Positions 1-35,915 of a stretch of 38,154 bases of DNA are shown in pieces. The first letter of the stretch is position 1. Each line of letters starts with the position of its first letter. A model generated the notes under the pieces. It ran no database searches, was not told the origin of the DNA, and was given only the letters and a program-made list of their open reading frames with translations. Both the position numbers and the translations under genes were made by a program. This stretch comes from Bacteroidota bacterium (lineage in GTDB: Bacteria; Bacteroidota; Bacteroidia; Bacteroidales; F082): NCBI GenBank assembly GCA_018336075.1, contig JAGXRB010000042.1:1-38154 (forward strand), read 5' to 3'.

Positions 1-591
1 AAGGCCAAGCACACGGTGGCCCCTACGAAAAATGTTGTTGTTTATTTCTTCACTGATAGCATCAAGAACGGCATAATAAGTATTGGTGTTTTTTGCCATG
101 CGATGCCCTTGGACAGCAAGAAAACTCTGATCAAAAACTTGGTTAATTTTCGCAAGCACATCATGGGCCATAATATTATCTGCATCAAGAATCATCGCGA
201 TTTCGTAATCATCACCAATTACTTCCATGCATCTGTTAAGCGCTTTTGATTTTTTGCTGATTTCAAAAACAACTTCTACAACTCTGATAGGCAACGCTTT
301 AAGTGCTTCAAGAGTTTCAGGTTTAAATGAGTCTGCAATTACAATTACTTCAAAAAGTTCACGCGGATAGTCTTGTTCCAGTGCATCTCTTGCAACATCT
401 ACGATAACATTATCTTCTTTGTAACCAGGAATTAAAACTGCAAATTTACGCAGTCGTTTTGCTTCTAGAGGCTTTCTTTTTCTGGCAAAAAGTGATGCAA
501 TACTAAAGGAGGCAATGTAAACTGTAGCCATTCCCAGATAGGAAAAAAAGATAATTTCAACAACTGTAATAATAAATCCTATGATTGTCAT
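1..591 (-). CDS. Family 2 glycosyltransferase, membrane-anchored, N-terminal part (runs off the window)
   Basis: Only the first 197 codons are present; the frame is open to the window edge. An N-terminal membrane helix (about residues 4-35) is followed by a basic stretch and a GT-A fold start (FAVLIPGYKED, residues 50-60). A metal/nucleotide-sugar binding DAD motif lies at residues 136-138 in MILDADN, and VQGHR follows at 160-164. This layout is that of processive or membrane-anchored GT2 enzymes that transfer sugars at the cytoplasmic face of the inner membrane; further C-terminal helices would be expected beyond the window. The ATG overlaps the stop of the upstream glycosyltransferase gene by four bases (ATGA), so the two are probably translationally coupled. 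The role is inferred to be sugar addition in exopolysaccharide or capsule synthesis. Donor and acceptor cannot be told. Confidence 0.85.
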   Translation of the reverse strand, partial: MTIIGFIITVVEIIFFSYLGMATVYIASFSIASLFARKRKPLEAKRLRKFAVLIPGYKEDNVIVDVARDALEQDYPRELFEVIVIADSFKPETLEALKALPIRVVEVVFEISKKSKALNRCMEVIGDDYEIAMILDADNIMAHDVLAKINQVFDQSFLAVQGHRMAKNTNTYYAVLDAISEEINNNIFRRGHRVLGL

Positions 592-1526
592 GTCGGTTTT
601 GGTTTTGGATTGTCATAAACTCCTTTAAAATGGCTTAAATTCCACCACATTGCTTTTAAATAGGCCAAAGCAAGGTCGAAGCGGCCTTTAATAGCATAAG
701 AAAATATAGTTTTTGGCAGAACAATCATATACAAATAGAACAAGCTCAATAGTTTAATAAAACCTTTTGTGTTTCTTCTGGCATATAAAACACGTCCCCG
801 ATGAAGATAAAAAATCTGAAATGGACTTTCTTTGACAGTTGAAATTGATTCTTTGTGCAGCACAAGTGATTTTCCCTGAAAGTATATTTTATATCCTGCC
901 TGTTTTATTCTTGAAGCCCAGTCATGTTCTTCATAATATAGAAAAAAGACTTCAGTCATCATTCCAACCTTTTCAATTACACTTCTTGGAACAAGCATTG
1001 CAGCGCCAAATATTGAGCCTGTTTCACAGGTAATATCATACTGACCATGATCCTTTTCACCAAATCCAATGGCTTTGTTTCTAATGGTAATCTCACTAAA
1101 TGGTGTAAATCCAGCGAATTGGAAAGTATTAGGTGTATGAAAATAGTGAATCTTTGGGCTTACCATGCCAATATTTTCATTCATTTCTATAAGTTCAACC
1201 ATTGGTTCAAGAAACCCAGCCTCAACTTCAGTATCGTTGTTAATGAAAAGTAAGTATTTACCTTTTGCTTTTTCAACAGCTACGTTATTGCCACCTGCAA
1301 AACCAAGGTTAATTCCGGTTTTGATAAAATGTACCTCAGGAAATTTTTCCTTGATTACATCCGGATTGTCATTTGGTGAACCATTGTCAACAACAAAAGT
1401 CTCAAGATTTGGATAGGTACATTTCGAAAGCGATGCAAGAAACTCTAGTGTAGTGGATGATTGATTAAAGTTTACTGTTATTACCGAAACAAGCGGGAGA
1501 ACTGAGATTGATTCAGTTTTTTCCAT
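588..1526 (-). CDS. Family 2 glycosyltransferase (rhamnosyltransferase-like)
   Basis: The 312-residue protein starts its GT-A fold at VSVITVNFN (residues 13-21). It has FVVDNGS (44-50), GFAGGNN (75-81) and the DxD-type metal site INNDTEV (95-101). The acceptor-domain motif YYEEHDW lies further on. This pattern matches the GT2 subfamily that contains rhamnosyl- and galactofuranosyl-type transferases of O-antigen and exopolysaccharide loci. A hydrophobic stretch at about 257-281 probably associates with the membrane. The gene sits 46 bases after the polymerase/ligase-like gene and overlaps the next glycosyltransferase by four bases. It probably adds one sugar of the repeat unit on the lipid carrier. 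The exact sugar cannot be read from the sequence. Confidence 0.85.
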   Translation of the reverse strand: MEKTESISVLPLVSVITVNFNQSSTTLEFLASLSKCTYPNLETFVVDNGSPNDNPDVIKEKFPEVHFIKTGINLGFAGGNNVAVEKAKGKYLLFINNDTEVEAGFLEPMVELIEMNENIGMVSPKIHYFHTPNTFQFAGFTPFSEITIRNKAIGFGEKDHGQYDITCETGSIFGAAMLVPRSVIEKVGMMTEVFFLYYEEHDWASRIKQAGYKIYFQGKSLVLHKESISTVKESPFQIFYLHRGRVLYARRNTKGFIKLLSLFYLYMIVLPKTIFSYAIKGRFDLALAYLKAMWWNLSHFKGVYDNPKPKPT

Positions 1527-1572: not shown

Positions 1573-3066
1573 TTATGTGGTATTCTTGATCGACCAAGGG
1601 TTTAATCCCTTGGCAGTTAGGTATATATACTCCCTTTCCAGTTGCTGACTTATAAAAATAATTACCCAACTTAAATAAATCAATATCCCTGTTGGCATCT
1701 GCCCAAGAACACCATTTCCGTAACTAGCCCCCATGATTCCGGTGAAACCTGCCATGAGGGCTGAAACAACTCCACGCAGTTCAGGTTCTTTTAGTCGAAA
1801 CATTATTATAAACGAACCCTTAATTAAAATGTAGGATAATATAAATAGGTGAAGGATTAGCCCAACAATACCTTGTTCGGCCCAAATCTGCACATACCAG
1901 CTATCAGTTGCAATTTGTGCCAGAAAACCTTGAGGTGAAAAACGTTTACCCCAGTCACCAGCACTGCCAATGCCACCTCCGAAAGGCCTGGAGCCAAGAT
2001 ACCCGGAAAGGATTCGCCTGTTTTCTAACCTAACCAGATAAGATTCATCTTCAGCAGGTCTGAATGCAGTACGCATACGTCGAATCTGTGAATTGCTCTG
2101 ACCAATATATGTGTAGGCAAAAAATGCATAAACCAATGCCAGAAAAAGACCACCTATAACAACAGCTCTGAAATTTTTTCGAAGTAAAATATATGTTATT
2201 CCACCCACCATAGGCACTATCATGGCACCACGAGTACCAGATATCATCATTCCCCAAAGGCCGGAAATTCCCATAATGGTAAAAAACACCTTGTTATGTA
2301 ATCCTTTAATATTCAAGGCGACTATAAGCCCAACAACACCTGCCGCTCCTTGTGCGGCTCCAAACTGTCCGGCATCGCTGAAAAAGGAAAATGCACGTAA
2401 TTCTCCGAAAAGAATATGTGTAACAGCTCCTACTGTATCCAGCCAGAATTGTTCTGCAGAGTCAGGGCCAATATATAACTGCTGTAGTCCTTTCAATGTA
2501 CCAAGTATCGAAAAAATCCCCCACAGATATAGAAATATTATAAGATATCTTAGCCTGTTGAAAATTAAGAAACCTATAGGAATGAGTAAAAGCATGTAAA
2601 GAGAAATACCCCTCATCGCATAAAACCATGAGGTTCTGCTTAATGCATCAGGATTAAAAAGTTGAAGCAAGGTATAACCAAACCATAATAGAGCTAGTAG
2701 AACCAAATCCCGGTTAATCTGATCCCATTTAATTTTTTCATAGAAATATCTAAAAAAAATAGCAACATATGTGAGGACTAAAAATCCATCTACACTTAGA
2801 CCAAATGGAACATTACGGATGTATCTTGTCAATCCGATTGCAATAAAACCAAGAATCACAATCGTGTAAAGCCCTACTCTTGGGTCATTTAAAAACCGGT
2901 TGAAAAATATAATTGCCGGAAAAAGCCCTAATAAAGCAAGAGACACAATAAGTCCACCCTTGGCAATAATGTAGCCAAGGACAACTGCAGCTATCACAAG
3001 CAATAAAATTATTGCCGGATGCTGAAGTTTCTCCGAACCTGTTTTGTCCTTAAGTGATGAAAACAT
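1573..3066 (-). CDS. O-antigen ligase / Wzy-type polymerase-like membrane protein
   Basis: This 497-residue protein is strongly hydrophobic along almost its whole length, with about eleven to twelve predicted helices by eye. Its one large polar loop lies in the C-terminal half and contains RLENRRILSGYLG, then GGGIGSAG, then a WYVQIWAEQG segment leading into the next helix. That arrangement, a long periplasmic loop with Arg and Gly-rich motifs followed by a helix, is typical of the O-antigen ligase/Wzy family, which joins undecaprenyl-linked repeat units or transfers them to an acceptor in the periplasm. It is nine bases downstream of the flippase gene. Sequence alone does not separate polymerase from ligase; with a flippase and a chain-length regulator beside it, polymerase is the better guess. 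Confidence 0.75.
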   Translation of the reverse strand: MFSSLKDKTGSEKLQHPAIILLLVIAAVVLGYIIAKGGLIVSLALLGLFPAIIFFNRFLNDPRVGLYTIVILGFIAIGLTRYIRNVPFGLSVDGFLVLTYVAIFFRYFYEKIKWDQINRDLVLLALLWFGYTLLQLFNPDALSRTSWFYAMRGISLYMLLLIPIGFLIFNRLRYLIIFLYLWGIFSILGTLKGLQQLYIGPDSAEQFWLDTVGAVTHILFGELRAFSFFSDAGQFGAAQGAAGVVGLIVALNIKGLHNKVFFTIMGISGLWGMMISGTRGAMIVPMVGGITYILLRKNFRAVVIGGLFLALVYAFFAYTYIGQSNSQIRRMRTAFRPAEDESYLVRLENRRILSGYLGSRPFGGGIGSAGDWGKRFSPQGFLAQIATDSWYVQIWAEQGIVGLILHLFILSYILIKGSFIIMFRLKEPELRGVVSALMAGFTGIMGASYGNGVLGQMPTGILIYLSWVIIFISQQLEREYIYLTAKGLNPWSIKNTT

Positions 3067-3075
3067 AGGTCTTTG

Positions 3076-4512
3076 TCATGAATTTGCAAGATTTTTTCTT
3101 CTCGATTTTGTCAAATTTATTATTGTTTTAAAACCTATCACAAATATAGCTTTTTTATTCAATTGAAGCTCTTTGTTAAGATAATTAAAACCAACTAAGA
3201 TTCCAATGATAGTAAAAAGAATTGTGACAACTGCAACTAATTCAAGTGTTTTAATTAAAGTAAAACCATGGGCTAACCTGTAGGCAACATCAGGTAAATA
3301 ACCTTGTGTAATCAAAATAGTCCATGATATTCCAATGATAATGGTTGATACACCAAAAACTGCTAGAATATCACCCAGAATATTTGCGCTTGCCATATAA
3401 ACAACCTTGAAAAAATTTTGCTTTGGTTTGTTAACGCTATCAAGACCAATACCAATAAACCTGTCGATAGGCAGCAGAAGTCCATAAATGCAGAAAATCC
3501 TGAAAATATTGGCTGTTACCAGATAATCTTTTCCTCCTAAAACAAACACAATCTGTTCAGCAAAAATGAATGAAAAGAGCATGACTGGAATCATCAGAAA
3601 TGTCATGCCACCTGCATTTTGGTAGAAGATTTCTTTAACTTTTACATAGTCTTTTTCAATTGCGGCTTTGGACATATTTGGAAATGCTGTTGCAGCAAAA
3701 CTTCGTAGAGGTATTTCGATTATCTCTGTTAGTTTTAGCGGAATAGAGTAAAGAGCTACTCCAACCGGGCCCATAAATGGGCTAAGTCCGATTATAAAAG
3801 CATCTGAACTTTTAAGGAGATTACTGCCGATAAGTGTACCTGTCGTATATTTGCCAAAGTCCAGTATGATGCGGTTTGTACTCCAATTGGCCTTAAATGT
3901 ATAGCGAATACCATCCCAGTTGCAGAAACTTGCCAGCAAAGAGCTCAAAAGATTGGTAAGTAAATAAACATAAAGGATTATTTCGATATCATAAGCCATA
4001 AACATATTAATTCCTAAAAAAATCATAAAGGAACCTACATTTAACGTTCTAAGCCATAGCATTTTATCAAATTTCATCCTTGCCTGAAGAATGGACTGAG
4101 CGTTGTTGAATGGCAGATTAAAAAATGATAAAACCGGATACCACTTAAAAAACATGGCAAAACCGGAGTCATCAATAACATTTTTAAAAAAGTGATAGAC
4201 AACAATCAGAATAATGGCAATCAAAGTTGTGGAAATAAAATTAATGAGGTTGTTTGATCCCATTAGTTTTTGAGAGTCATTTTCATTTGCTCCCGACAAA
4301 AACCTGATGATTGCTGTGCGTGTTATGCCAAACCGCAGCATGTCTATAAAACCACCTGCGGTAAGAAAAAGTACCCATTCACCAAAAACTTCCTGCGACA
4401 CCATGCGCACCAGCATGATAAAACTAAGAAAACCGAAAACAGCGACTAAGCCGTTATTTGCCAGCGATAAAAAATTATTGCTGGATAGCAGTTTTTTGAT
4501 AAGACCATTCAC
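3076..4512 (-). CDS. Wzx-like polysaccharide flippase (MOP superfamily)
   Basis: The protein has 478 residues and about twelve to fourteen hydrophobic helices. It begins with a short cytoplasmic stretch and the segment LVAVFGFLSFIMLVRMVSQEVFGEW, which is characteristic of the polysaccharide transport branch of the MOP superfamily. A basic C-terminus (TKSRRKNLANS) suggests a cytoplasmic tail. These proteins move undecaprenyl-diphosphate-linked oligosaccharides from the inner to the outer leaflet of the cytoplasmic membrane. Its position between the co-polymerase and the polymerase-like gene, nine bases from each, fits a Wzx/Wzy-dependent pathway. Substrate specificity cannot be predicted. Confidence 0.85.
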   Translation of the reverse strand: MNGLIKKLLSSNNFLSLANNGLVAVFGFLSFIMLVRMVSQEVFGEWVLFLTAGGFIDMLRFGITRTAIIRFLSGANENDSQKLMGSNNLINFISTTLIAIILIVVYHFFKNVIDDSGFAMFFKWYPVLSFFNLPFNNAQSILQARMKFDKMLWLRTLNVGSFMIFLGINMFMAYDIEIILYVYLLTNLLSSLLASFCNWDGIRYTFKANWSTNRIILDFGKYTTGTLIGSNLLKSSDAFIIGLSPFMGPVGVALYSIPLKLTEIIEIPLRSFAATAFPNMSKAAIEKDYVKVKEIFYQNAGGMTFLMIPVMLFSFIFAEQIVFVLGGKDYLVTANIFRIFCIYGLLLPIDRFIGIGLDSVNKPKQNFFKVVYMASANILGDILAVFGVSTIIIGISWTILITQGYLPDVAYRLAHGFTLIKTLELVAVVTILFTIIGILVGFNYLNKELQLNKKAIFVIGFKTIINLTKSRRKNLANS

Positions 4513-4521
4513 AGCAGTTGA

Positions 4522-7365
4522 TTAGTTTTCCTTCACCTGAATTCTGATGCGTGCAGGCATAGTTAAGATATTCTTCAGCTTATAGAAAATATTGTCAGTT
4601 TTATGAACTTTAACCCCGGAAATGAGCTCTTCGATAGCATAATCTTCTGCTTCATTAAGAATAATCATTGGTGGCTCTTTTGCAAGGTCATTGATAATAT
4701 CCAAAGCTCCCTCATCTGCTTTATTCCAGCTGCTCGTACCTTTTATTACTAGGAGAGAAGCATCAGCTTGCTGAATAATCTCCATAGGAAACGAATGAAA
4801 AATGATTGAAGGAATTTCAAGCAAAATATAATCATAGAGAAAGTTGTCTCTACGTAAACTATTGCTGTCAATTAAATCTCTCAAGTTTTTTATTTCACTG
4901 AATTTCTCGTTTAACGGGTAGTTATATGCTAGGTTATAATCATTAACATCGTTATCTGATTCATTGCCAGAGTAGTTAAGAAGCAAAACCTTATCACCAT
5001 AAGTACGCAGTTTATTAGCAATCTTTGTGGTTATAAAAGTCTTACCCGTTTTTTCCTGCGTGCTAAAAAACAGTACTATATAAGGTTTTTGTGCCGGATA
5101 TACAGATTGCTGTGTAATGCTTCTTTTAATATTCTGAATCATCATCTCAATCAAACGATTGCCGATAAAAACTGCATCCTTCATCCTGACAGTTGAACTT
5201 ATATATGGATAAGCGCCAGCAAGTTTAAGACCGATTTTGCTTGTAACTTTATCCGGATTTTTGAGCGATGAATCAAAGTACTCAAGAACCAAGATAATAA
5301 ACAGTATTAAAAAGAAACCTATCATAGCTGCTGCAACCACCAGATACTTTGCTTTGGATGGATTTGCTTGTAAAGGAAAATAGGGTGGGTCAACTATCCT
5401 GATATTTGTTGCCATTTGTAGGTTTTGCTGACGCATTTTGGCAAGATTCAGACTCCGCAGTAACTCCAGATAGGTTTGTTCTGCAATTGTCATTTCACGT
5501 TCAATGCGTTTGAGCATAGCGCCAAGTGGAGCAAATCGTTGGTAGGTCTTTACAAAATCAAGTTTTCTGCGGGCAAGAACCACAAGGCTTGCTTTCGCTT
5601 CCTCGTAAGCAAGTGCATTTTTAAGCCATTCATCCAGAAGTGAGGCCACTGGTATGCCTTGTGTTGAATGACTGTAAAGGTATAGCTGATCTACATAAAG
5701 CTTAATTTCATCACGAAGATGATCACCTCTCAGGCGCAACTTAGATATTTCATCACCAATTCTTTTGTCATAATCCTCGGCGAGCTCATTAATCAGAATC
5801 TTTTCAGTTACATCTGCATACTCTTTCCTTCTCTGATTGATGACATCACTTTTGAGATAAATACTATCCCTTCTTGTGAGCTTGGTTTCAAGTTCGCGCA
5901 ATGCTGCCGAAGATTGAGCCATTCTAACCTGCTCATTCTGATAGAAAAGATCCAGATCTTCTTTTTGAGCTGCAATGTACTTTGTTTGCTCAGCATAATT
6001 GATAATATTATTTCTTCTGTTGAATTTCAGAAGCTTATCTTCCGTTGATTGCAATTGTCTGTCAGCAGAATCTACCTGTCTTCTAAAATATTCAACAACC
6101 AAATCGGTTTGGTTCTCTTTCAACATTTTATAGTTTTTCACGAAAACACTTGCAATGATTTTGAGGGTTTGCTGACATATTCCCGGATCATCTGATAAAT
6201 AAATTAATCGTACTAAGTCGCTATTATTTATACGGTATATCTGAAGAGTTTTTATTGATCTGATGCTGTAGTGCTTGCTTGAACCATAGTGAAGCAAACC
6301 ATAAATGAAATTTGTATCACTTGAATTGTAATAGTTCGTAAAATTCTGAATTGTTTTTTGAAAGTCATCTTCTCTAATGCCTCTGGGAATTATTGGATCT
6401 TTTTCTATTACATTTTCTACTGCATCCTGAGAAAAACTTTGATAAGATATATATGTATCAGTTGCAGGTTCGTTGATAATGTAATCCAATTCTGGAAGGT
6501 ATTCCTCTTCATAAAACCCGCTATCATCCGCAATTACATTTGTGGATTGAGTTACTATATTATTGTTTGCAATCTGAGTATAGTTTGGAACCGAACCTCC
6601 ATCAAGCACAAGACGCTGTCCAGATCTCAATTCCTGCGAACTAAGATTATTTAACTCTCTCAGTTTATTCATGCTTATACCATACTTTTTTGATAATGTA
6701 AGCAATGTTTCGCCAGGTCGAACAATGTGTGTTCGGGCAGTTGAAGCAGAGGCTATTTGTTGAGTTTCGGATGAATATACTGGTGTAGAAAAAGTAGTAG
6801 CCTCTTTTGTCAGACCAGTTGCGGGAAGGTTTTCTGATTCAGTATTTCCTGAATTATAGTCTGTATCATTAATAGGTCTTGACCTTTGTTTCTGATATTC
6901 CTTTTCCAGATTCCTCAATTCTTTCTCAAGAGATCTAATTTGCTCCTCTTTTTCACGCTGCATGCCTGCTTTACCGTTTTTGACAACCATGTCTTTAACT
7001 TTTTTCGGCACAAACTTGCGAAGTTCATCATAATGAATGTTGGAAATGTATTGAGGATTGTAATCTTCAAGTGACAGATTTTGTGCCAAAAGCATTATGG
7101 CTGTTTCTACAATTGTTTGTCTTGAATTAATAAGGTTGATCAGGTTGTCAAATTGGGCACTTGTGCTAAAAAAGTCTGTTGGTCTTTGTGCTGTTGATTC
7201 AATGGAATAGCCTGTGGTGATACCAGTATATATGATAGCTTCGGATTCATAGATTTTATCCTGATTCCGGGTGAGATAAAAAACAACGATTGCCAATAAG
7301 AACGGGATGGCAATCAATAAAAGGAGATTGTTCCTTATGACGCGTATGAATTGAGCTATATCCAT
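4522..7365 (-). CDS. Wzz-like polysaccharide co-polymerase with inserted LysM domain and degenerate kinase-like C-terminal domain
   Basis: The 947-residue protein has a Wzz-type N-terminus with a helix at about 14-31 and a second helix at about 674-695. Everything between should be periplasmic: a short coiled coil (136-160), a LysM domain (212-256, starting HIVRPGETLLTLSKKYG), an acidic linker, and long helical heptad-rich segments (410-650). The Pro-rich stretch before the second helix (VDPPYFPLQANPSKAK) is typical of chain-length regulators. The C-terminal cytosolic domain (about 720-947) resembles the BY-kinase fold. Its Walker A-like loop is STQEKTGKT (768-776), the Walker A' region reads VLLLNYSG without the usual Asp, and Walker B reads YILLEIP with Glu in place of Asp. 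There is no C-terminal tyrosine cluster. It probably controls polymer length and links synthesis to export; kinase activity is doubtful. The gene lies 11 bases after the TolC-like gene. Confidence 0.85.
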   Translation of the reverse strand: MDIAQFIRVIRNNLLLLIAIPFLLAIVVFYLTRNQDKIYESEAIIYTGITTGYSIESTAQRPTDFFSTSAQFDNLINLINSRQTIVETAIMLLAQNLSLEDYNPQYISNIHYDELRKFVPKKVKDMVVKNGKAGMQREKEEQIRSLEKELRNLEKEYQKQRSRPINDTDYNSGNTESENLPATGLTKEATTFSTPVYSSETQQIASASTARTHIVRPGETLLTLSKKYGISMNKLRELNNLSSQELRSGQRLVLDGGSVPNYTQIANNNIVTQSTNVIADDSGFYEEEYLPELDYIINEPATDTYISYQSFSQDAVENVIEKDPIIPRGIREDDFQKTIQNFTNYYNSSDTNFIYGLLHYGSSKHYSIRSIKTLQIYRINNSDLVRLIYLSDDPGICQQTLKIIASVFVKNYKMLKENQTDLVVEYFRRQVDSADRQLQSTEDKLLKFNRRNNIINYAEQTKYIAAQKEDLDLFYQNEQVRMAQSSAALRELETKLTRRDSIYLKSDVINQRRKEYADVTEKILINELAEDYDKRIGDEISKLRLRGDHLRDEIKLYVDQLYLYSHSTQGIPVASLLDEWLKNALAYEEAKASLVVLARRKLDFVKTYQRFAPLGAMLKRIEREMTIAEQTYLELLRSLNLAKMRQQNLQMATNIRIVDPPYFPLQANPSKAKYLVVAAAMIGFFLILFIILVLEYFDSSLKNPDKVTSKIGLKLAGAYPYISSTVRMKDAVFIGNRLIEMMIQNIKRSITQQSVYPAQKPYIVLFFSTQEKTGKTFITTKIANKLRTYGDKVLLLNYSGNESDNDVNDYNLAYNYPLNEKFSEIKNLRDLIDSNSLRRDNFLYDYILLEIPSIIFHSFPMEIIQQADASLLVIKGTSSWNKADEGALDIINDLAKEPPMIILNEAEDYAIEELISGVKVHKTDNIFYKLKNILTMPARIRIQVKEN

Positions 7366-7376
7366 AGTATGTTAAT

Positions 7377-8150
7377 CTATCTTAGTACATTGATTAAATT
7401 GAAGTTGATGCCTGTCAGAATTTCAAGAAAGCGATAGTTTTTGCTAAATTCCGCTACAGCTTGTTGATATTCGATGTCTCCCCTGGTTTGAATTTCTTTT
7501 AATCTGGTATATTCAGCCGTTGTTATTTCTCCATTAAGAAATTGATTCTGTGCCATTTGCATCTGAATCATTGTAAACTTCCTGTAATCGTTGTAAATAC
7601 GAATATAATTTTGCCACTGAATCATCATGTCATATGCTTCAATCACCTGTCTGACAACAAACTGCCGGTTGATTTCGCGCTGAACAAATGACAATTCCTG
7701 CCATTTCTTTTGTTTTGCAATTCTGTTTTGCCTGTCAACGATAGATGCAAGAGGAAAACGAATGTAGAACCCAACTGCAAAATTGTCCCGAAGTGAATTT
7801 AAATCAACCCAGAAATTTTGAGATATGGAGGATGATTGTGTGTCATGGAAATTCCAGATGCCCCAGTTCCAATCCAGATTGAAACTAAAATGTTCCATCC
7901 AGTATCTTTCCTGCGATAATTGTTCATAATAGTAGTAATCTGCTTTAACTTCTTCGTATTTTACTGAGGGAGAATTAGCAACTGCTGAGTCAATCAGAAC
8001 CCTGATGCTAGGCAGTCTTTTTGTAATATCATCTGTGAGAGGATTAAATATTTTGGACTCATCTGTGGCTAAAATCTGTCCATATAATTGATTTCCAAGT
8101 AATAATACTGGAATGAAAAATATAAGGTATCTTAAATACTTTCGAATCAT
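7377..8150 (-). CDS. Short TolC/outer-membrane efflux-like protein of the polysaccharide locus
   Basis: A signal peptide is clear (MIRKYLRYLIFFIPVLLLG, cleavage near QLYGQ). The mature part has the features of one TolC half: a helix with NSPSVKYEEVKADYYY, a strand-rich insert with W-N-W and F-Y-I-R-F-P residues, then long helices (residues about 145-250) ending in YRFLEILTG. TolC family proteins usually carry two such repeats and about 420-480 residues, whereas this one has 257. It may be a one-repeat version that assembles with more subunits, or a periplasmic/outer-membrane partner of the co-polymerase encoded 11 bases downstream. A role in exporting the polymer through the outer membrane is inferred from context. 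No frameshift is visible, since the reading frame is clean from signal peptide to stop. Confidence 0.65.
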   Translation of the reverse strand: MIRKYLRYLIFFIPVLLLGNQLYGQILATDESKIFNPLTDDITKRLPSIRVLIDSAVANSPSVKYEEVKADYYYYEQLSQERYWMEHFSFNLDWNWGIWNFHDTQSSSISQNFWVDLNSLRDNFAVGFYIRFPLASIVDRQNRIAKQKKWQELSFVQREINRQFVVRQVIEAYDMMIQWQNYIRIYNDYRKFTMIQMQMAQNQFLNGEITTAEYTRLKEIQTRGDIEYQQAVAEFSKNYRFLEILTGINFNLINVLR

Positions 8151-8275: not shown

Positions 8276-9466
8276 TTAAACATTTTCTTTTTGAAATAAT
8301 GCTGGTATTGTTCTTAAAATTAACCTGATATCACCCCAAAAAGAATAAGTTCTTGCGTATTGATTGTCGAGTGCTTTGCGTTCTTCCTCTGACATTGCAC
8401 CTTTTTTTCCTCGTTTTTCTACCTGCCATAGACCAGTTATACCAGCTGGACCCATAAATCGCTCACTCCAGTCATCGGATGTGAGCAACTCTGCCTCGTA
8501 AAGTGGCAATGGCCTGTTGCCAACAATGGACATGTCACCTTTCAACACATTAATTAGTTGAGGAATTTCATCAATGCTGGTATTTCTTATAAATTTACCA
8601 ACTTTGGTAACGCGGGGATCATCCTTAATTTTAATAAAAGTTGAGCTTCCCTTTCTCTTTTTTGTTTCATCGTACCAATATTCGCAAATCTTTTTTCCTT
8701 CAGAGAAAAGTACCGAAGAACATGTCTCACCATTTTCTAAAACTGCACACTTTGGACAAAATTCCTCTATTTCTTCACCTTTTTCAGAATCTAATTCGTA
8801 CTGATTAAGATGCTTAAGATTTTGCAAAGCACTGTCAGCCCCAATTCGCATCGATCGGAATTTGTAAAAATCAAATATTCTGTAGCTGGTTCCGACTCTT
8901 TTGGAGGTATAGTAAACTTTACCTTTTGATTCGAGACGTATTGCAATGGCTGTTATTATGAAGACTGGCGAGAGCCCCAACAATGCAGCAGAAGAAACAA
9001 AAATATCGAAAAGCCGCTTATTCCATGGAATTTTGTACTCTCTATGCACTTGTTCAAGCGATCTGTCGATAGAGAAGTACTCCAGATAACGAATTAATCC
9101 AGTTATTCGCTGGTAAATTCCTTCCGGATCAACCTTGTTTTCGTAAAAATCTGATATCCTAATTTTGAAAGCTTCCTGCTTAAAGGATGGAGAGGATTCT
9201 TCCGAAAAGATTAGAAATGGCTTATTAGGATGAATATTTTGGATACGAAGCATCTTGAATATCTCAAGTGCATTCATACCTGGAAGGTTAAGTTCACAGA
9301 TTATTGCATCGACATCTGAATTGTTTTTTAAGTAATTAATACATGAAAAACTATTTTCAGAAAGTATCATTGTAAATAACTCAGGCTTACTTTTCAGGCT
9401 GTCGATAAATTTAAAATTACCGCCTGTATATAAGATCTTCAAAACCTGTGTGTCTGAACTGTCCAT
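8276..9466 (-). CDS. Phosphoglycosyl transferase (WbaP/PglC-type sugar transferase) fused to a degenerate receiver domain
   Basis: Residues 1 to about 128 have the layout of a response-regulator receiver (REC) domain without its key residues. The acidic pair of strand 1 is missing (ILYTGGN, 11-17), and the phospho-acceptor Asp is replaced by Glu58 in IICELNLPGM. Ser88 and Lys111 are retained. Residues 145-396 form a bacterial sugar transferase. It has a membrane re-entrant helix (RLFDIFVSSAALLGLSPVF), the KRVG motif (189-192), FYKFRSM (200-206), the catalytic Asp299-Glu300 dyad in SIDEIPQLINVLKGDMSIVG, and GITGLWQV. An insert between FRSM and the dyad carries four cysteines (237, 240, 249, 261). 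This class moves a sugar-1-phosphate from a nucleotide sugar to undecaprenyl phosphate, the first step of polymer synthesis. The gene lies 22 bases after a complete receiver gene. The transferred sugar is unknown. Confidence 0.85.
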   Translation of the reverse strand: MDSSDTQVLKILYTGGNFKFIDSLKSKPELFTMILSENSFSCINYLKNNSDVDAIICELNLPGMNALEIFKMLRIQNIHPNKPFLIFSEESSPSFKQEAFKIRISDFYENKVDPEGIYQRITGLIRYLEYFSIDRSLEQVHREYKIPWNKRLFDIFVSSAALLGLSPVFIITAIAIRLESKGKVYYTSKRVGTSYRIFDFYKFRSMRIGADSALQNLKHLNQYELDSEKGEEIEEFCPKCAVLENGETCSSVLFSEGKKICEYWYDETKKRKGSSTFIKIKDDPRVTKVGKFIRNTSIDEIPQLINVLKGDMSIVGNRPLPLYEAELLTSDDWSERFMGPAGITGLWQVEKRGKKGAMSEEERKALDNQYARTYSFWGDIRLILRTIPALFQKENV

Positions 9467-9488
9467 AGTTAGCTCGCTTTAAAATGTG

Positions 9489-9863
9489 CTATTTTCTGGC
9501 AATCAGAAGTTCAATTCTAATGGAAAGCTCTTCCGGATTAAAAGGTTTAACCATATAATCGTTTGCCCCGAGCTTTAAACATTTGATTTTTTCCTGACTA
9601 CTTTCAATTCCTGAAAGCATTATCATTGGGATGTCTTTAAAATATCCGCTGGATCTTACGTTTTTTATGAACTCATACCCATCCATGTTCGGCATCTGAA
9701 TATCCGCTACTATGAGCTCTGGCATGTTTCCTTCTTCCAGCCATCTCATTCCATCAAGACCATCATTTCTCGTAATAACTTCATAGATCTTGCTTAAATA
9801 ATTCTCAAGTAGCATACGTATGCTAAGTTCATCATCGATAACCAGAATTTTTTTCTTTATCAT
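9489..9863 (-). CDS. Single-domain response regulator (CheY-like receiver)
   Basis: The 124-residue protein is a stand-alone receiver domain with all the conserved residues: the acidic pair in LVIDDE (Asp10-Asp11), the phospho-acceptor Asp54 in LIVADIQMPNMDG, Ser84 in IMLSG, and Lys106 in MVKPF. No output domain follows. I chose the ATG at 9861-9863, giving MIKKKILVIDD; a TTG three codons upstream is the only other in-frame option nearby. It is the first gene of the exopolysaccharide run and lies 22 bases before the pseudo-receiver phosphoglycosyl transferase, so it may regulate that enzyme or another pathway component through phosphorylation. No histidine kinase gene is visible in the window. 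Confidence 0.9.
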   Translation of the reverse strand: MIKKKILVIDDELSIRMLLENYLSKIYEVITRNDGLDGMRWLEEGNMPELIVADIQMPNMDGYEFIKNVRSSGYFKDIPMIMLSGIESSQEKIKCLKLGANDYMVKPFNPEELSIRIELLIARK

Positions 9864-23823: not shown

Positions 23824-25017
23824 TTACGACTTTTCTTCTTTTTCCTGTCTTTGCGCACGTTTAAACGGCTTTGTTCTGTCAAAAAGAAAGCGATAGGTAA
23901 CATGTGTTTTAAAAACTTCACCTCCGATACCCTCTACAATTTTGATCATAGGAGGATTGAAATCTCCTATCCAGTTCATCTGAAGTTCTTTGTAAGGGAA
24001 ACCTTTTCGCATGGCTATTTCTCTGAAATATAAAATAATAGCTCCATCCACACCTTTTCCCTGATGCTCGGGAACTATTCCGAAAATTCGGCCGATAATT
24101 CTGTTACATTTTTTCTGAACCTTTAATCTGAACAAAAATTTCAGTTTATTAAGCCAGTTGAGCCTGCCATTAAAATCATAAATTATTTGATTCAAGTCCT
24201 GGACAGCGATAAAGAAGGCGATTGGTTCACCTTTATAATAACCAAAATTAACAAGACGCCTGTCCAGTATCGGTTTCATCTGATTCAAAAGGGCAATTGC
24301 GTGTGCCTGTGTAATCATTTTCACACCTGGAATTACACCCCATGCCTTATTATAGATGGTCATGAAATCATTGGCATACTTGTCCCTATCTTTCCAATTT
24401 ACATTCTCAAAAGTGTAGAAGGGATTTTGTGCAATCCTTGCAGCTTTTTCATACACTTTATCGCGTAAGGTACCACCATGAACCATTCGGCGAAAAGTAT
24501 ACTGATTGAAGTAGTTTTGAAAACCATAGGCTTCAAACAGATCTTTATAATACGGAAAATTGTATGGCATATTGAAAACGGGTTCTGAAAAGCCATCGAC
24601 CAGCACTCCCCAAAAGTTGTCGCGATCACCAAAATTGACAGAGCCGTCCATGGCTTCCATTCCACGCTCCTCAAGCCAGTTTTTAGAAGCTTCAAAAAGT
24701 ATATTAGCTGCTTCCTGATCGTTAATGCAATCAAAAAACCCACAACCTCCTGTTGGTTGATCATTGTTTGAAGCTGTGTGAGGGTCAATGAAGGCGGCTA
24801 TTCTTCCAACAATTTTGTTTTCACCGTCACGCAAAAGCCATCTTATGGCATCACCCTTTCGCAGTTTTTTATTACTTTCTTTATCAAAAAGCTTTTCCAC
24901 ATCCTGATCTAATGGACGAACATATATAGGATCGTTTTTATATAGTTTTGATGGAAAACTCAGCCACTCTGATTTTGAAAAAGGACTTAAAACCTCTTCA
25001 ATAGTATAGTTCTGCAT
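23824..25017 (-). CDS. GNAT-superfamily-like protein (YghO-like)
   Basis: The 397-residue protein reads as a GNAT acyltransferase-like fold. A first part contains VGRIAAFIDPH and a GFFDCINDQEAANILFEASKNWLEERG segment, and a second part contains IFGIVPEHQGKGVDGAIILYF, whose QGKGVDGAI resembles the acetyl-CoA pyrophosphate loop (Q/RxxGxG/A). Proteins of this type are widespread and poorly characterised; a substrate cannot be named. The start is set at the ATG at 25015-25017 because the promoter at 25042-25071 lies between it and the upstream in-frame GTG at 25053, whose leader would not be transcribed. It converges on sucD with a shared terminator. Confidence 0.7.
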   Translation of the reverse strand: MQNYTIEEVLSPFSKSEWLSFPSKLYKNDPIYVRPLDQDVEKLFDKESNKKLRKGDAIRWLLRDGENKIVGRIAAFIDPHTASNNDQPTGGCGFFDCINDQEAANILFEASKNWLEERGMEAMDGSVNFGDRDNFWGVLVDGFSEPVFNMPYNFPYYKDLFEAYGFQNYFNQYTFRRMVHGGTLRDKVYEKAARIAQNPFYTFENVNWKDRDKYANDFMTIYNKAWGVIPGVKMITQAHAIALLNQMKPILDRRLVNFGYYKGEPIAFFIAVQDLNQIIYDFNGRLNWLNKLKFLFRLKVQKKCNRIIGRIFGIVPEHQGKGVDGAIILYFREIAMRKGFPYKELQMNWIGDFNPPMIKIVEGIGGEVFKTHVTYRFLFDRTKPFKRAQRQEKEEKS

Positions 25018-25041
25018 AATGAAACAATTATTTTCTGTGGG

Positions 25042-25071
25042 CAAATATAGCACAGATGATAAGAATACAAA
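25042..25071 (-). promoter_or_regulatory. Bacteroidota-type promoter of the GNAT-like gene
   Basis: On the minus strand TTTG (25071-25068), 18 bases, then TATATTTG (25049-25042). Both elements and the spacing fit the -33/-7 promoter of this phylum. It would start transcription roughly 15-20 bases before the ATG at 25017. This is the best-formed promoter in the window. Confidence 0.65.
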
Positions 25072-30440: not shown

Positions 30441-33428
30441 TTATTTGAAAACAATTTTTGCACTCGCCTGATTACCATTTTCATCATAGAATGAAATCAT
30501 GTAAACACCCGGGAGCAAATCATTTCTATTGACAACAACCCTGTTATTGTTGATGTTATCGTAGGTTCTGATTCTTGTTCCAAGCATGTTAAATAATTCC
30601 AGCCGACCATTTTTTATGACAGATCTGCTGCTGAAGTTTATAGTTGTGCTTTCAATTGCCGGATTAGGAGTAACCTGCATGCTAAAGTGACTTTTAGATT
30701 TGGCTGAAATCTGAGGCAATGAAACAAGCTGACTATTCATAGCACCAGGGCTTCCATGTCCTGGAGAAGCCATCCAGCTTTGAGGAAGTGCGTTGTCCAG
30801 TTCAGGGCGAATTAGTTCTAAAGTAGGTCCATTGCCATCAGGAGCCGTTGGCCAGGGAGCTTTATCATCATATTCCACATGGTCAACCAAAGTCAAATTG
30901 CTGTTGTAAAGTCTCAAAAGTTCACCGCTTCCACTAAATCCAAAACTCATTTCGCCAATCACATTTGTGACATCAGGAAACAAAGCTGAAAACATGTTTA
31001 GATTTCTGCAGATAACAAGATAGCCAGAGGGTTCAATAATGGTTCCTTCAGGAAAAATAAATTCATGAGCGTCGTCTTCATCTTTAAAAATCCAGCCAGT
31101 AATGTCAAGTTCATAGGAATGTGGATTGTAAAGTTCAACCCAGTCTTCAGTATTAAAGTTACTTGCAGAATTATAATTTATCTCATTAATAACAAGGGAA
31201 TCCGAGAAAGTTTTTGGTCTGAAATGAGCAATAACGTTCTCCCAATCAGTTGGAAACAGAGTTATTTCCGAACTGGTATCACTTGGAAAAGCACTATGAT
31301 TTATAAGTTCCCAATAGTCGAATTCATAATCAGTGCTGATAGGAATTGCCTTTAATTTAACTGCAACGCCTCCAAAATAAGATCCTTCCCAGGGATATTC
31401 ATCGATTTGCAATGAATTTATTTGAATCGTTCCGGTTTCTGCTGGCAAAGTATTAAGCTCAAAGTTATACGGTCCGGTTAGATTGTAGCAGTTTCTGAGT
31501 CCTTCTGGAAGATAAGCATAACGTGTGTTAATAAAGTTTCTTATTTTTTGAACATTGCTTAGCCAACGTGTCATTGAGCCACCCCAACGCAAAATATGCC
31601 GGGGCATTTCAGGTGTCATCTTTGCAACTAATTCATCTAAGTAAGTAATAATTTCGTCCGGACGAAAGGCGGTATTGTACAAATCAATGTAACGGGAAAT
31701 GTAATACTGATTGAATTCGGCATTGTTTCGCAATCTGTTAAGTACTAATATATGCTGACCCGGGTCGGAAGTTAGTCCTTCTGGATAGCATGGCGAAACG
31801 GTGGGATGTGTTCCCGGCACACCGGTATAATTGATGTAATGATTGAAGGTGGCATCTTCATCCCACAAAATATAGGCCCACTTCAAATGACCTCCCTCAG
31901 GATTCAAGCCTCTCCACCAGCCTACATTCCAATTGATCCAGTCAGAACAAACAACAAATGAGTTGATGATAACATAATCCACGAGACTGGTATAATCATA
32001 ACGTGATTTCACATATTCAAAATGATCCTGATTGCTCATGTCGTTATTTTTGATGTAGTTACGAATCTCATACCAATCATCAAAAGCTGCCTGACCACCA
32101 TATTCGGCCCAGGTTGTTCCCCAGAGTTTTAGAAAGCGTAGATTGTATTTATCCTGATTGTAATAGTAGCTTGTAAAATCATGATCGTCCACTTTTTCGC
32201 GCATGCCATAAACACCCCAATATTGACCATTGGCGTACATCACACATTTTTCACCTTTTCGAACATCGAGCTGCATACCGTTTTTTGACGCAACATTTTG
32301 TACAAACATATCCCGCAGCAAAGCGCTTGAATCGATTCCGGGATAGTTATCATCTCCAGCAGCTCTTAAAATTATCCGCTGAAATTCATTTCGGTCAGTC
32401 AAAGGAATCAATGCTTCACGGATGGCATAATTGTAACCGCATTCATCGCGGCTTACATAATCGATACTGCGTTGATTATGAACCCATGAATCTTGTCCGT
32501 GTTTGTTGAATTCACCATATCCATAGGTAGTTCTTACTCCTTCAGCATTAAAATATTCGAAAGTACCAAAAGGTTCAAGGTATTGATTTCCATTTAACAG
32601 TTGGGTGAGTTGATTTGCAGATGTCGAAATCACAGGCATTGTGTGATTTGCACCTATGAAAAAGGTATTGAATTCCAGAAGCCCGGGATGAACTGAAGGA
32701 TTGTTGCTGAAAGTACGTGCGATTACAATTGTGGTCTGAGAAATTGTAATCGGACCTGTATAAAGTGTTGAGTTGAGTGTAGGTTCATTGCCATTAAGTG
32801 TGTAGCGAATTTGTGAATTTGGTTCCAATGTAGAAATCTCAATTGTTATTGGAAAGGGATAAAATCCTGCGGTTGCACTCATTTGTGGTCTTGCAGAATA
32901 AGATGTGAATACACCACTTGTCAAATTCACAAAGCCTGGAGTAGGTGTGGTAAAAATGACCCAGTCTGAGTTTTGAAGTGAGCGCCCTCTTGAATGCTCT
33001 TTCATTGTCAATTCAAGCTGTTTTTGGTCTACTATTTCACCTGATGGACTTGAAAATACGATATGTTCCGGTTCATCTTTCGTTTGCGAAAGCTTAAAAT
33101 TGGTATGAAAATGGCCTCCTGCTACTTCGTTCCTGCCAGAAGCCCAAACTTTTATGTACCCTCCGGCTTGTATTGTGACACCCTCAGGAAATTGCCATTT
33201 GAAAGGCCTGTTTGGATTGTCACTCAAGTAATAACCTGCCAGGCTATGAGCTTGTGAACCTGAATTATACAATTCTATCCAATCTTCATATTTGCCATAA
33301 TTATCCACAAATCCAACTAAATTAGAAACAGAATACTCGTTGATTATGACCTGACTTTTTAATGTGTTTTTTTCACTAAAGGAAATAACAGATAAAAGCA
33401 GCAGCAAAAAACAAAGATTTTTTTTCAT
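30441..33428 (-). CDS. Large secreted CotH-kinase protein with two lamin-tail domains and T9SS sorting domain
   Basis: From the ATG at 33426-33428 the protein has 995 residues and a signal peptide (MKKNLCFLLLLLSVISF). Domains in order, numbered from that start, are: a lamin-tail domain (LTD, about 26-165, VIINEYSVSN, EDWIELYNSG), a chitobiase C-terminal-like beta domain (181-241, RYTLNGNEPTLNSTLY), a CotH kinase domain (about 260-615, with LRAAGDDN, RDMFVQNVA, GQYWGVYGMREKVD and WAYILWDEDATFN), a repeat-like beta domain (661-738), a second LTD (741-881) and a T9SS type A sorting domain (914-995, VTPNPAIESTTINF to KIVFK). CotH domains are secreted protein kinases. LTDs may bind surfaces or nucleic acid. 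It is probably exported and anchored at the cell surface. An alternative ATG four codons upstream exists. A near-consensus -7 box (TTACTTTG) lies at 33487-33494. Confidence 0.9.
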   Translation of the reverse strand: MKKNLCFLLLLLSVISFSEKNTLKSQVIINEYSVSNLVGFVDNYGKYEDWIELYNSGSQAHSLAGYYLSDNPNRPFKWQFPEGVTIQAGGYIKVWASGRNEVAGGHFHTNFKLSQTKDEPEHIVFSSPSGEIVDQKQLELTMKEHSRGRSLQNSDWVIFTTPTPGFVNLTSGVFTSYSARPQMSATAGFYPFPITIEISTLEPNSQIRYTLNGNEPTLNSTLYTGPITISQTTIVIARTFSNNPSVHPGLLEFNTFFIGANHTMPVISTSANQLTQLLNGNQYLEPFGTFEYFNAEGVRTTYGYGEFNKHGQDSWVHNQRSIDYVSRDECGYNYAIREALIPLTDRNEFQRIILRAAGDDNYPGIDSSALLRDMFVQNVASKNGMQLDVRKGEKCVMYANGQYWGVYGMREKVDDHDFTSYYYNQDKYNLRFLKLWGTTWAEYGGQAAFDDWYEIRNYIKNNDMSNQDHFEYVKSRYDYTSLVDYVIINSFVVCSDWINWNVGWWRGLNPEGGHLKWAYILWDEDATFNHYINYTGVPGTHPTVSPCYPEGLTSDPGQHILVLNRLRNNAEFNQYYISRYIDLYNTAFRPDEIITYLDELVAKMTPEMPRHILRWGGSMTRWLSNVQKIRNFINTRYAYLPEGLRNCYNLTGPYNFELNTLPAETGTIQINSLQIDEYPWEGSYFGGVAVKLKAIPISTDYEFDYWELINHSAFPSDTSSEITLFPTDWENVIAHFRPKTFSDSLVINEINYNSASNFNTEDWVELYNPHSYELDITGWIFKDEDDAHEFIFPEGTIIEPSGYLVICRNLNMFSALFPDVTNVIGEMSFGFSGSGELLRLYNSNLTLVDHVEYDDKAPWPTAPDGNGPTLELIRPELDNALPQSWMASPGHGSPGAMNSQLVSLPQISAKSKSHFSMQVTPNPAIESTTINFSSRSVIKNGRLELFNMLGTRIRTYDNINNNRVVVNRNDLLPGVYMISFYDENGNQASAKIVFK

Positions 33429-33440
33429 GATGAAATACAT

Positions 33441-34745: not shown

Positions 34746-35915
34746 CTATATTTTTACAACTTTTAACTGGTAAATAAAGTCTTTGCTTTCCAGCACTAAA
34801 AAATGCATTCCTGCAGGTAGATGTGAGATTGACAAATGATCTGCACTTTCTGCTGTCCCAATCTCATGAGTCAATAGCAGATTGCCGGCAGTGTCAAATA
34901 TACTGGCTTTTACATTTTTCATACTACCCGTATTTATTTGAATCACTCCATTTGTTGGATTAGGAAAAATTGAAATAGCTTCTGGAGCAAAGGAGGATAA
35001 CGCCGTTTGAATTGTCATATTTTTAAAATAAAACATCTGTCCATCCTCGTTTCCAATGAAAAGATCGGCATCACCATCATTATCTACATCTGCAAAGGCA
35101 GGTTTTGATTCAGTACCCAGATCGATGCCATTGAAAGGGTTTTCAAGGCCAGTTTTTGGAACAAAATCCGGCACAAAAACAGTACCTTCATTTTCATAAT
35201 AGTGCAGCGCCCCACTATCCTCACCAAGCAAAAGGTCAAAATCTCCATCATTATCTATATCTGCAAAAGCTGGAGTCACAAAATCACCTACATAAATACC
35301 AGTCAATGGATTCAATGCTTCCGTTTGTTCAACAAATACAGGAGAAACGCTGTTGCCTTCATTCAAATAAAAGCGTACAACGCCATAATCGTCACCTATA
35401 AAAACATCAAAATCTCCATCATTGTCTATATCCACAAAACTCATTTTGGCTTCCCATCCAATTTCGTAATGAACTAAAGGATTTTCATTACCATATCTTC
35501 GAGCAAAAACCGGATTTGATGCATCGCCGATATTTTCGTAAAACTGAATTACAGCCCAAACGCTTCCAATAAACGCATCGAAATCACCATCGTTGTCGAT
35601 GTCGACAAAGGCTATGCTGGAATAAGCAATTGCATCCGCAGAATCAAGTGGGTTAGCTTCGCCTGTTTTTTGTTCAAAAATCGGATGATTGGTAGTCCCA
35701 GTATTTTTATAGAACAAAATGTTGCCACCTGATTCACCAAAGAAAACGTCTTGCAAACCATCGTTATCTATATCGACAAATGCTGGTGAAAGATAATCAC
35801 CGATTATAAGACCATTAAAAGGATTGAGATTTCCAAATTGTTGTTCGAAAAAAGGTTGCGCATTCAAAAAGGCTATTGAGATAACTAAAGATAGTGTTAA
35901 GATGATTTTTTTCAT
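34746..35915 (-). CDS. Secreted FG-GAP/VCBS-like repeat protein with T9SS sorting domain
   Basis: A signal peptide (MKKIILTLSLVISIAFLNAQ) is followed by five repeats spaced almost exactly 57 residues apart. Each has a calcium-type loop D(I/V)DNDG at residues 48, 105, 162, 219 and 277, followed by (D)xFxG. These DxDxDG loops are typical of VCBS/FG-GAP beta-propeller blades and bind Ca2+. The five to six blades suggest a small propeller. Residues about 310-389 form a T9SS type A sorting domain (IFPNPTNG to LKVVKI). The protein is probably exported to the surface and may mediate adhesion or binding. It converges with the SDR gene. No enzymatic motif is visible. Confidence 0.88.
   Translation of the reverse strand: MKKIILTLSLVISIAFLNAQPFFEQQFGNLNPFNGLIIGDYLSPAFVDIDNDGLQDVFFGESGGNILFYKNTGTTNHPIFEQKTGEANPLDSADAIAYSSIAFVDIDNDGDFDAFIGSVWAVIQFYENIGDASNPVFARRYGNENPLVHYEIGWEAKMSFVDIDNDGDFDVFIGDDYGVVRFYLNEGNSVSPVFVEQTEALNPLTGIYVGDFVTPAFADIDNDGDFDLLLGEDSGALHYYENEGTVFVPDFVPKTGLENPFNGIDLGTESKPAFADVDNDGDADLFIGNEDGQMFYFKNMTIQTALSSFAPEAISIFPNPTNGVIQINTGSMKNVKASIFDTAGNLLLTHEIGTAESADHLSISHLPAGMHFLVLESKDFIYQLKVVKI

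Follow-up and report, generated by a model that had tools for sequence, protein, structure and literature searches.

Conserved pairs of inactive and active receivers at a Bacteroidota phosphoglycosyl transferase suggest a protein-level switch for polysaccharide synthesis

The window analysed here is a stretch of 38,154 nucleotides from a Bacteroidota bacterium of the order Bacteroidales (F082; assembly GCA_018336075.1, contig JAGXRB010000042.1, positions 1 to 38,154 of the forward strand). It encodes a phosphoglycosyl transferase (PGT) with a degenerate receiver domain at its N-terminus, next to the gene for an intact single-domain receiver. Across a survey of 215 members of this PGT branch, a single-domain receiver gene lies upstream of 174 of 176 evaluable fused transferases. 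None of the 179 fused receivers has a complete phosphorylation site, whereas 167 of 174 partner free receivers keep all five catalytic residues. Because the pair recurs so consistently, the pairing goes beyond chance; judged from these sequences it is real in many Bacteroidota and is not a local oddity. A conserved inactive/active receiver pair at a PGT suggests a protein-level on/off switch for polymer synthesis. The two genes and the parts of their products discussed below are as follows.

8276-9466, minus strand: PGT (small monotopic, Bac_transf) with N-terminal pseudo-receiver, 396 aa
9489-9863, minus strand: intact single-domain receiver, 124 aa, with D10, D11, D54, S84 and K106 (Pfam E 2.9e-25)
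9074-9454, minus strand: pseudo-receiver domain, residues 5-131 of the PGT (Pfam Response_reg, AlphaFold2, Foldseek)
9419-9424, minus strand: G15-G16, replacing the acidic pair (family motif LYIGG), by alignment with the free receiver and relatives
9293-9295, minus strand: Glu58 codon, at the phospho-acceptor Asp position by alignment
9149-9151, minus strand: Asp106, start of β5 (D in 158/179 fused relatives)
9107-9109, minus strand: Arg120, α5 (R in 156/179 fused relatives)
8285-9025, minus strand: catalytic monotopic PGT domain, residues 148-394 (PF02397; Foldseek match to PglC, 8e37)
8684-8758, minus strand: four-Cys insert CxxC-x8-C-x11-C, residues 237-261, within the PGT catalytic domain
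9702-9704, minus strand: phospho-acceptor Asp54 codon of the free receiver (D in 171/174 partner receivers)

The initial annotation, made from the DNA alone, had described a receiver-like domain that lacks the acidic pair and has Glu58 at the Asp position, with a complete receiver (Asp54) encoded 22 bases upstream. Both descriptions hold. The two open reading frames (ORFs) are on the same strand, the receiver gene upstream and separated by the 22 bases 9467-9488. Alignment places the acidic pair D10/D11 of the free receiver against G15/G16 of the fused domain and Asp54 against Glu58; Y13/T14, also considered as the acidic-pair positions, were ruled out by the same alignment. A third loss, absent from that annotation, is that of the catalytic Lys: K106 aligns with N110, and a nearby lysine, K111, is one residue off. 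This leaves S88, at the Thr/Ser position, as the sole canonical site residue of the fused domain.

The fold is nevertheless predicted to be that of a receiver, as had been proposed for residues 1-128. Pfam Response_reg matches PGT residues 37-121 (E 1.5e-7, 32.0 bits vs a cut-off of 30.2). An AlphaFold2 model built from 26 sequences (the window and named loci; mean pLDDT 79.8, pTM 0.55) scores residues 11-130 at a pLDDT of about 85-95 and shows strands alternating with helices in the β-α receiver topology. In Foldseek this N-terminal half aligned with experimental receiver structures at E of about 1e-7 to 1e-6 and target-normalised scores (TMt) of up to 0.86 (9of3, 0.86; 8fk2, 0.85). A search of a viral fold library placed receivers and kinases on top and unrelated folds below. 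Together these predictions support the domain at residues 5-131 as a true pseudo-receiver, with a predicted receiver fold and the phosphotransfer residues missing. Pfam finds no receiver in the distant relative L090 (Chitinophaga cymbidii); the best non-PGT matches of its model are receiver-containing proteins, and these are weak (E 5e-4 to 1e-2; single receivers mostly TMt 0.5-0.68). This model is suggestive of a receiver fold in the most diverged fused members as well.

The other half of the protein is a small monotopic PGT. Bac_transf (PF02397) matches residues 150-391 (E 2.8e-55, 187.1 bits vs a cut-off of 27), and Foldseek aligns the C-terminal half with PglC (8e37; E 4.1e-13, TMt 0.77). 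A helix is predicted at residues 148-179 by AlphaFold2 and is re-entrant by homology. D299 and E300, which we take to be the Asp-Glu catalytic dyad of monotopic PGTs, are kept in 153/154 and 152/154 fused relatives, respectively. The layout of large monotopic PGTs of the WbaP/EpsZ type was not seen, as the model has a receiver fold alone before helix 148-179, and the NCBIfam cut-offs for WbaP, WcaJ and EpsZ were not reached by the window PGT. All four cysteines of the insert occur in 24/24 close relatives, the window locus included, and the pattern occurs in 118/154 fused and 26/36 unfused family members, being missing in several distant ones. The insert is a possible metal site, as read from the cysteine pattern, and since it is present in fused and unfused members alike it is not tied to the receiver.

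A search for the same domain pair in other Bacteroidota loci, the check put forward in the initial annotation, was carried out on partly overlapping samples: 61 related genomes; 395 genomes phylum-wide; 149 of the family; 393 of the order; 395 of the class; 98 of another class; the best 80 loci from a capped scan covering 84,980 species genomes; and 74 of 75 stretches retrieved by their coordinates. After exclusion of rows below 220 bits to the PGT profile and of duplicates by the last 240 residues, these gave the 215 distinct branch members, 179 fused (at least 100 residues before the catalytic domain) and 36 unfused. A locus was evaluable if it had at least 350 bases upstream or if a receiver was found, and a receiver was counted if it was a same-strand ORF of less than 260 aa within 500 bases upstream; three fused loci and one unfused locus, with less than 350 bases upstream and no receiver found, were left out of the evaluable counts. 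The relatives are the best matches of each search, gathered by similarity to the window protein, so the counts are not natural frequencies. In the phylum-wide draw, 31/395 genomes match at E 1e-60 or better, giving 18 fused and 9 unfused loci after duplicate removal. An earlier set of 190 family members had a receiver beside 149/151 evaluable fused PGTs; the final tallies use the 215.

The receiver gene accompanies the fused form of the transferase. Unfused members of the same branch have a receiver upstream in 6/35 evaluable cases, one of them (L264) with a broken frame; when L264 and L074, whose frame is split, are dropped from the comparison, the count is 5/33, leaving 28/33 without a receiver gene. 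Among close relatives, the 61 genomes searched with the pseudo-receiver and linker yielded 24 fused loci, the window's included, and a same-strand receiver gene lies directly upstream in all 24. In the best 80 loci of the species-genome scan, 30 (L066-L095) belong to the PGT branch of the window protein, with Flavobacterium, Pedobacter, Mucilaginibacter, Chitinophaga, Hymenobacter, Rufibacter, Prevotella and Rikenella among the named genera. A receiver lies directly upstream in 27/30 of these; L084 and L091 are without one, and in L074 it is one ORF further away. The other 50 loci (L096-L145), from other PGT branches and many phyla and including a Bacteroidales metagenome-assembled genome (L107), served as controls, and a single-domain receiver was found directly upstream in 0/48 evaluable ones, L106 and L144 having less than 150 bases upstream. 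Two weak receiver-profile matches in control L117 were not counted, one lying 238 bases upstream (17.5 bits) and the other 170 bases downstream (22.3 bits). Free receiver, pseudo-receiver and PGT joined in one ORF would have counted as strong evidence; this arrangement was found in 0/179 fused members, the longest N-terminal extension being 215 residues.

Two fused receiver-PGT genes lie close together on one contig in L253 and L267 (G833, G895). The window's own genome has a second PGT of the same branch (L005, contig C102; 265 aa) without a receiver domain. Such an unfused paralogue is common in related genomes, and the fetched cases mostly lack a neighbouring receiver.

One account of the pairing is that regulation plays no part and that the receiver gene is simply inherited with its operon. 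Neighbouring pathway genes are indeed also partly syntenic, but none is as constant: a receiver-related gene is at -1 in 28/30 loci with a located PGT, and the next most constant neighbour, the co-polymerase family, occurs in 22/31 loci, 16 of them at +2. Given also the strong constraint on the catalytic residues of the free receiver, passive inheritance is very improbable.

The division of labour between the two receivers is sharp. Partner free receivers have Asp54 in 171/174 and Lys106 in 174/174, and at least two of the seven incomplete ones are truncated or split ORFs (L021, L068). In the fused receivers both acids at 15/16 occur in 2/179 and Lys at 110 in 16/179, being absent in 163/179. 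Among the 24 close loci, no fused receiver has an acid at 15 or 16, and the free receivers have Asp54, Ser84 and Lys106 in 24/24 and the acidic pair in 23/23 readable. Relatives with a full Asp site in the fused domain, raised in the initial annotation as a ground for doubt, were thus not encountered in complete form. In L063 and L275 the free receiver also has Glu at the Asp54 position, so that the free partner too is without an acceptor.

Position 58 itself is less uniform. Glu is found in 110/179 fused receivers (64% after down-weighting of similar sequences), Asp in 29 and other residues in 38, with a gap in 2; the 24 close loci have Glu in 20 and Asp in 4, and in the window's genus three of six relatives carrying the gene have Asp58 (L009, L010, L022). 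On a catalytic-domain tree of 154 fused rows, parsimony requires at least 15 changes between Glu and not-Glu. These data bear on the proposal of the initial annotation that Glu58 mimics a phosphorylated Asp and so keeps the fused domain locked in an active-like conformation, the free receiver then pairing with that domain. Glu is the commonest substitute in Asp-less receivers generally, at 26% (PMC4395418; statements from this and the other papers cited draw on excerpts of them), and its higher share here speaks for such a role. Against it, Glu58 is common yet replaceable, even within one genus, and the Lys that would be its contact partner is mostly missing; in ChxR, moreover, Glu alone does not explain activity, according to excerpts of PMC4395418 and PMC12632262. 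The idea of a Glu lock is thereby weakened, and we regard it as improbable as the key to the system. In these alignments Glu58 is favoured but replaceable, which agrees with the literature on Asp-less receivers; where present it may favour an active-like shape, and it would not be required.

Taken together, these observations allow us to propose a mechanism. A kinase or phosphorelay would phosphorylate the free receiver at Asp54, and the phosphorylated receiver would dock on the α4-β5-α5 face of the pseudo-receiver to form an unequal receiver-receiver pair. Docking would shift the pseudo-receiver, or order it, with respect to the catalytic domain at the membrane, and the transfer of sugar phosphate to undecaprenyl phosphate would thereby be switched, most probably on. 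In this arrangement the pseudo-receiver would be the fixed half and the free receiver the signalling half, and together they would act as a phosphorylation-controlled valve where a Wzx/Wzy-type polysaccharide pathway takes its first committed step. Activation as the direction is taken by analogy from EpsW-EpsZ of Myxococcus xanthus, where phosphorylated EpsW raises EpsZ activity. Control of the enzyme by the free receiver through the pseudo-receiver, the main idea of the initial annotation, stays the best reading and is unproven; to the whole sequence of docking and switching we would give an even chance. That the half-receiver on the initiating PGT of Bacteroidota is a dedicated dock for a phosphorylated free receiver, gating commitment of undecaprenyl phosphate without new transcription, we hold tentatively, at a little under even odds.

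Residues on the proposed docking face are consistent with this. Conservation in the pseudo-receiver is highest at Asp106, followed by Arg120, 14 residues further on, and an acid at 106 occurs with a base at 120 in 160/179. The equivalent acid/base pair is found in 136/174 free receivers and in 18/39 readable control receivers from the same loci, the controls being a small set of related sequences (52 distinct, 13 with a gap at either position left out). Free receivers keep K/R92 in 167/174 and E112 in 164/174, and mostly also D102 and R/K116. A charged network on the α4-β5-α5 face holds OmpR/PhoB-type dimers together, as described in excerpts of PMC2586830 and PMC4773095. As far as aligned residues can tell, the kept dimer-face residues speak in part for binding of the free receiver to the pseudo-receiver.

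Several points weigh against this reading. The pseudo-receivers have K/R96 in only 87/179 and an acid at 116 in only 56/179. NsrR has an Asp100/Lys114 pair on the same face with the same 14-residue spacing as D106/R120 (excerpts of PMC2586830/PMC4773095), and since that pair lies within one monomer, conservation of D106/R120 may reflect the fold. Direct-coupling covariation over 148 pairs and 246 columns gave interprotein signals that are scattered and amount to noise, some of them at residues expected to be buried. Two fused PGTs have no receiver neighbour (L038, in a one-contig genome, and L249), and an intact receiver stands beside a PGT without the fused domain in L062, L064, L085, L092 and L056/L306, so that contact with the catalytic domain itself could suffice. 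No kinase adjoins the receiver in the window, where the upstream gene is uvrB. Many of the sequences are related, and when independent pairs were used to ask whether fused domain and receiver gene are lost jointly, two supported pairs were found, too few to give the test any power. A Fisher p-value from the same comparison ignores relatedness and is given no weight.

The five bare transferases that keep a receiver gene make direct action on the catalytic domain the main rival. Under this explanation the free receiver would act as modelled for EpsW on EpsZ and the pseudo-receiver would be merely structural, for example a homodimer piece where large PGTs have a cytoplasmic domain. In the Myxococcus model EpsW touches both the cytoplasmic and the catalytic domains (excerpts of PMC12802240), and the rapid divergence of the pseudo-receiver is in keeping with a structural role: mean identity over 149 pairs is 23.5% for the pseudo-receiver, 67% for the PGT and 50% for the free receiver, and among close relatives 36%, 75% and 76%, respectively. 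However, the receiver follows the fused domain, most unfused members being without the gene, and the pseudo-receiver retains its dimer-face residues. We consider direct action unlikely, though a serious competitor to docking on the pseudo-receiver.

The history of the family was read from trees of the transferase. When eight outgroup PGTs are included, fused forms branch on both sides of unfused ones, although the deep nodes are weakly supported. The fused state is therefore probably ancient in this branch; seven changes between fused and unfused are required with the outgroup and four in another tree. One clade, made up of 20 unfused paralogues that come mainly from the family of the window's genome, probably lost the domain together with the receiver gene.

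The proposed switch calls for a kinase, and candidates are found in other loci. Among 29 next-upstream genes of the named loci, the ten scanned (mostly the longer ones) include three hybrid histidine kinases (L066, L075, L089); the other seven are three nucleotide-sugar enzymes, a GT2 glycosyltransferase, a sigma-54 regulator, UvrB and a DUF-domain protein. Kinase pieces, either HATPase with receiver or receiver with Hpt, lie upstream in L026, L028, L041, L062 and L064, these five ORFs having been chosen because they carry a receiver. All eight are candidates for the cognate kinase. A regular-expression kinase scan, which found one gene and missed known kinases, was discarded.

These neighbours also bear on the explanation that the pseudo-receiver serves another partner or ligand, such as the co-polymerase, a kinase or a nucleotide (for example cyclic di-GMP, c-di-GMP), with the free receiver merely sitting in the operon as an intermediate of a phosphorelay or as a phosphate sink. 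The pseudo-receiver of ShkA binds c-di-GMP (excerpts of PMC7010744), and since several upstream kinases are hybrids with receiver and Hpt domains, a relay is plausible. Yet the free receiver lies just before the PGT almost without exception, whereas a kinase adjoins in 3/10 scanned cases, and if the receiver were a sink for kinases that differ between loci, it would not be expected to stay with the transferase. We judge this explanation doubtful, and less probable than direct action on the catalytic domain.

Downstream of the PGT, on the same strand, the genes are those expected of a polysaccharide pathway.

7377-8150, minus strand: short outer-membrane-efflux-type protein (OEP), 257 aa, next gene of the locus (Pfam OEP E 5.7e-9)
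4522-7365, minus strand: polysaccharide co-polymerase (GNVR, weak Wzz) with LysM domain, 947 aa (Pfam)
3076-4512, minus strand: Wzx-type flippase (Pfam Polysacc_synt_3 E 1e-13)
1573-3066, minus strand: Wzy-type polymerase/ligase (Pfam Wzy_C E 2.5e-11)
588-1526, minus strand: GT2 glycosyltransferase (Pfam Glycos_transf_2 E 9.5e-22)

With these genes, a Wzx/Wzy-type polysaccharide locus is the natural reading. At 257 aa the OEP has about half the usual OEP length. Full homologues are of similar size (about 237-262 aa), and 14 of the 15 loci with this family have it one or two genes after the PGT (+1 or +2), so the protein seems to be a genuine short form rather than a truncated one. In the co-polymerase, LysM is above the Pfam cut-off and both GNVR and Wzz are below it. 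The LysM domain occupies residues 213-254, between the Wzz-like and GNVR parts, and as homologues range from about 695 to 965 aa the LysM insert may be variable. Elsewhere in the window, 30441-33440 encodes a 999-aa protein that combines CotH kinase, lamin-tail and chitobiase C-terminal domains with a type 9 secretion tail; the genes at 34746-35915 and 36315-37895 have this tail too. A 409-aa ORF with a GTG start at 23824-25053 has no Pfam match at E 0.001 and is overlapped on the same strand by a 129-aa ORF.

Both receiver control of a PGT and receiver-PGT fusions are already in print. Receiver domains fused to small monotopic PGTs are mentioned in PMC12802240, citing O'Toole et al. 2021; the excerpted parts of PMC12802240 make no mention of the fused receiver being inactive or of an accompanying free receiver gene. 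Among the open-licence papers listed by literature searches, none has a title or displayed abstract on a Bacteroidota pair of free receiver and pseudo-receiver-PGT. The strings 'sugar transferase' and 'Bac_transf' are absent from the 2025 pseudo-receiver review (PMC12632262), and 'sugar transferase' is absent from the 2015 paper (PMC4395418). If the proposed switch is correct, control of polysaccharide initiation by single-domain receivers would reach well beyond myxobacteria, with different parts. It would represent a widespread post-translational output of two-component signalling, with quick gating and with a membrane enzyme as target instead of DNA. Acting at the first step, the switch would in addition save undecaprenyl phosphate, on which cell-wall synthesis draws as well.

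The closest known system is that of Myxococcus xanthus, in which the phosphorylated single-domain receiver EpsW stimulates the PGT EpsZ post-translationally, as supported by proximity labelling and heterologous activity (excerpts of PMC12802240). The two systems share a single-domain receiver and the initiating PGT of a Wzx/Wzy pathway. They differ in that EpsZ, as described there, is a large PGT with a transmembrane-helix bundle and a cytoplasmic DUF and no fused receiver, whereas the window PGT is PglC-like with a fused pseudo-receiver. The window proteins fall below the levels set for EpsW/EpsZ orthology (NF041866, 64.6 of 200 bits; NF041877, 156.8 of 800 bits). Small PGTs work as monomers (excerpts of PMC12802240), and the dimer-stabilising part of the EpsW-EpsZ model therefore need not apply here. 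ShkA is alike in that a pseudo-receiver controls an enzyme, but its ligand is c-di-GMP and the enzyme a kinase (PMC7010744, in part). Asp-less receivers and pseudo-receivers likewise have a receiver fold without the phospho-acceptor, most often with Glu, and heterodimers of pseudo-receiver and receiver are discussed for WhiI/BldM and CmrRST (PMC4395418, PMC12632262, both in part). In those sources, however, WhiI/BldM are transcription regulators and CmrRST is a proposal, whereas here the output is a membrane enzyme. Pseudo-receiver switching is called a mystery in an excerpt of the 2025 review (PMC12632262); it becomes directly testable in this family, since a conserved inactive/active pair has an assayable enzyme as its output.

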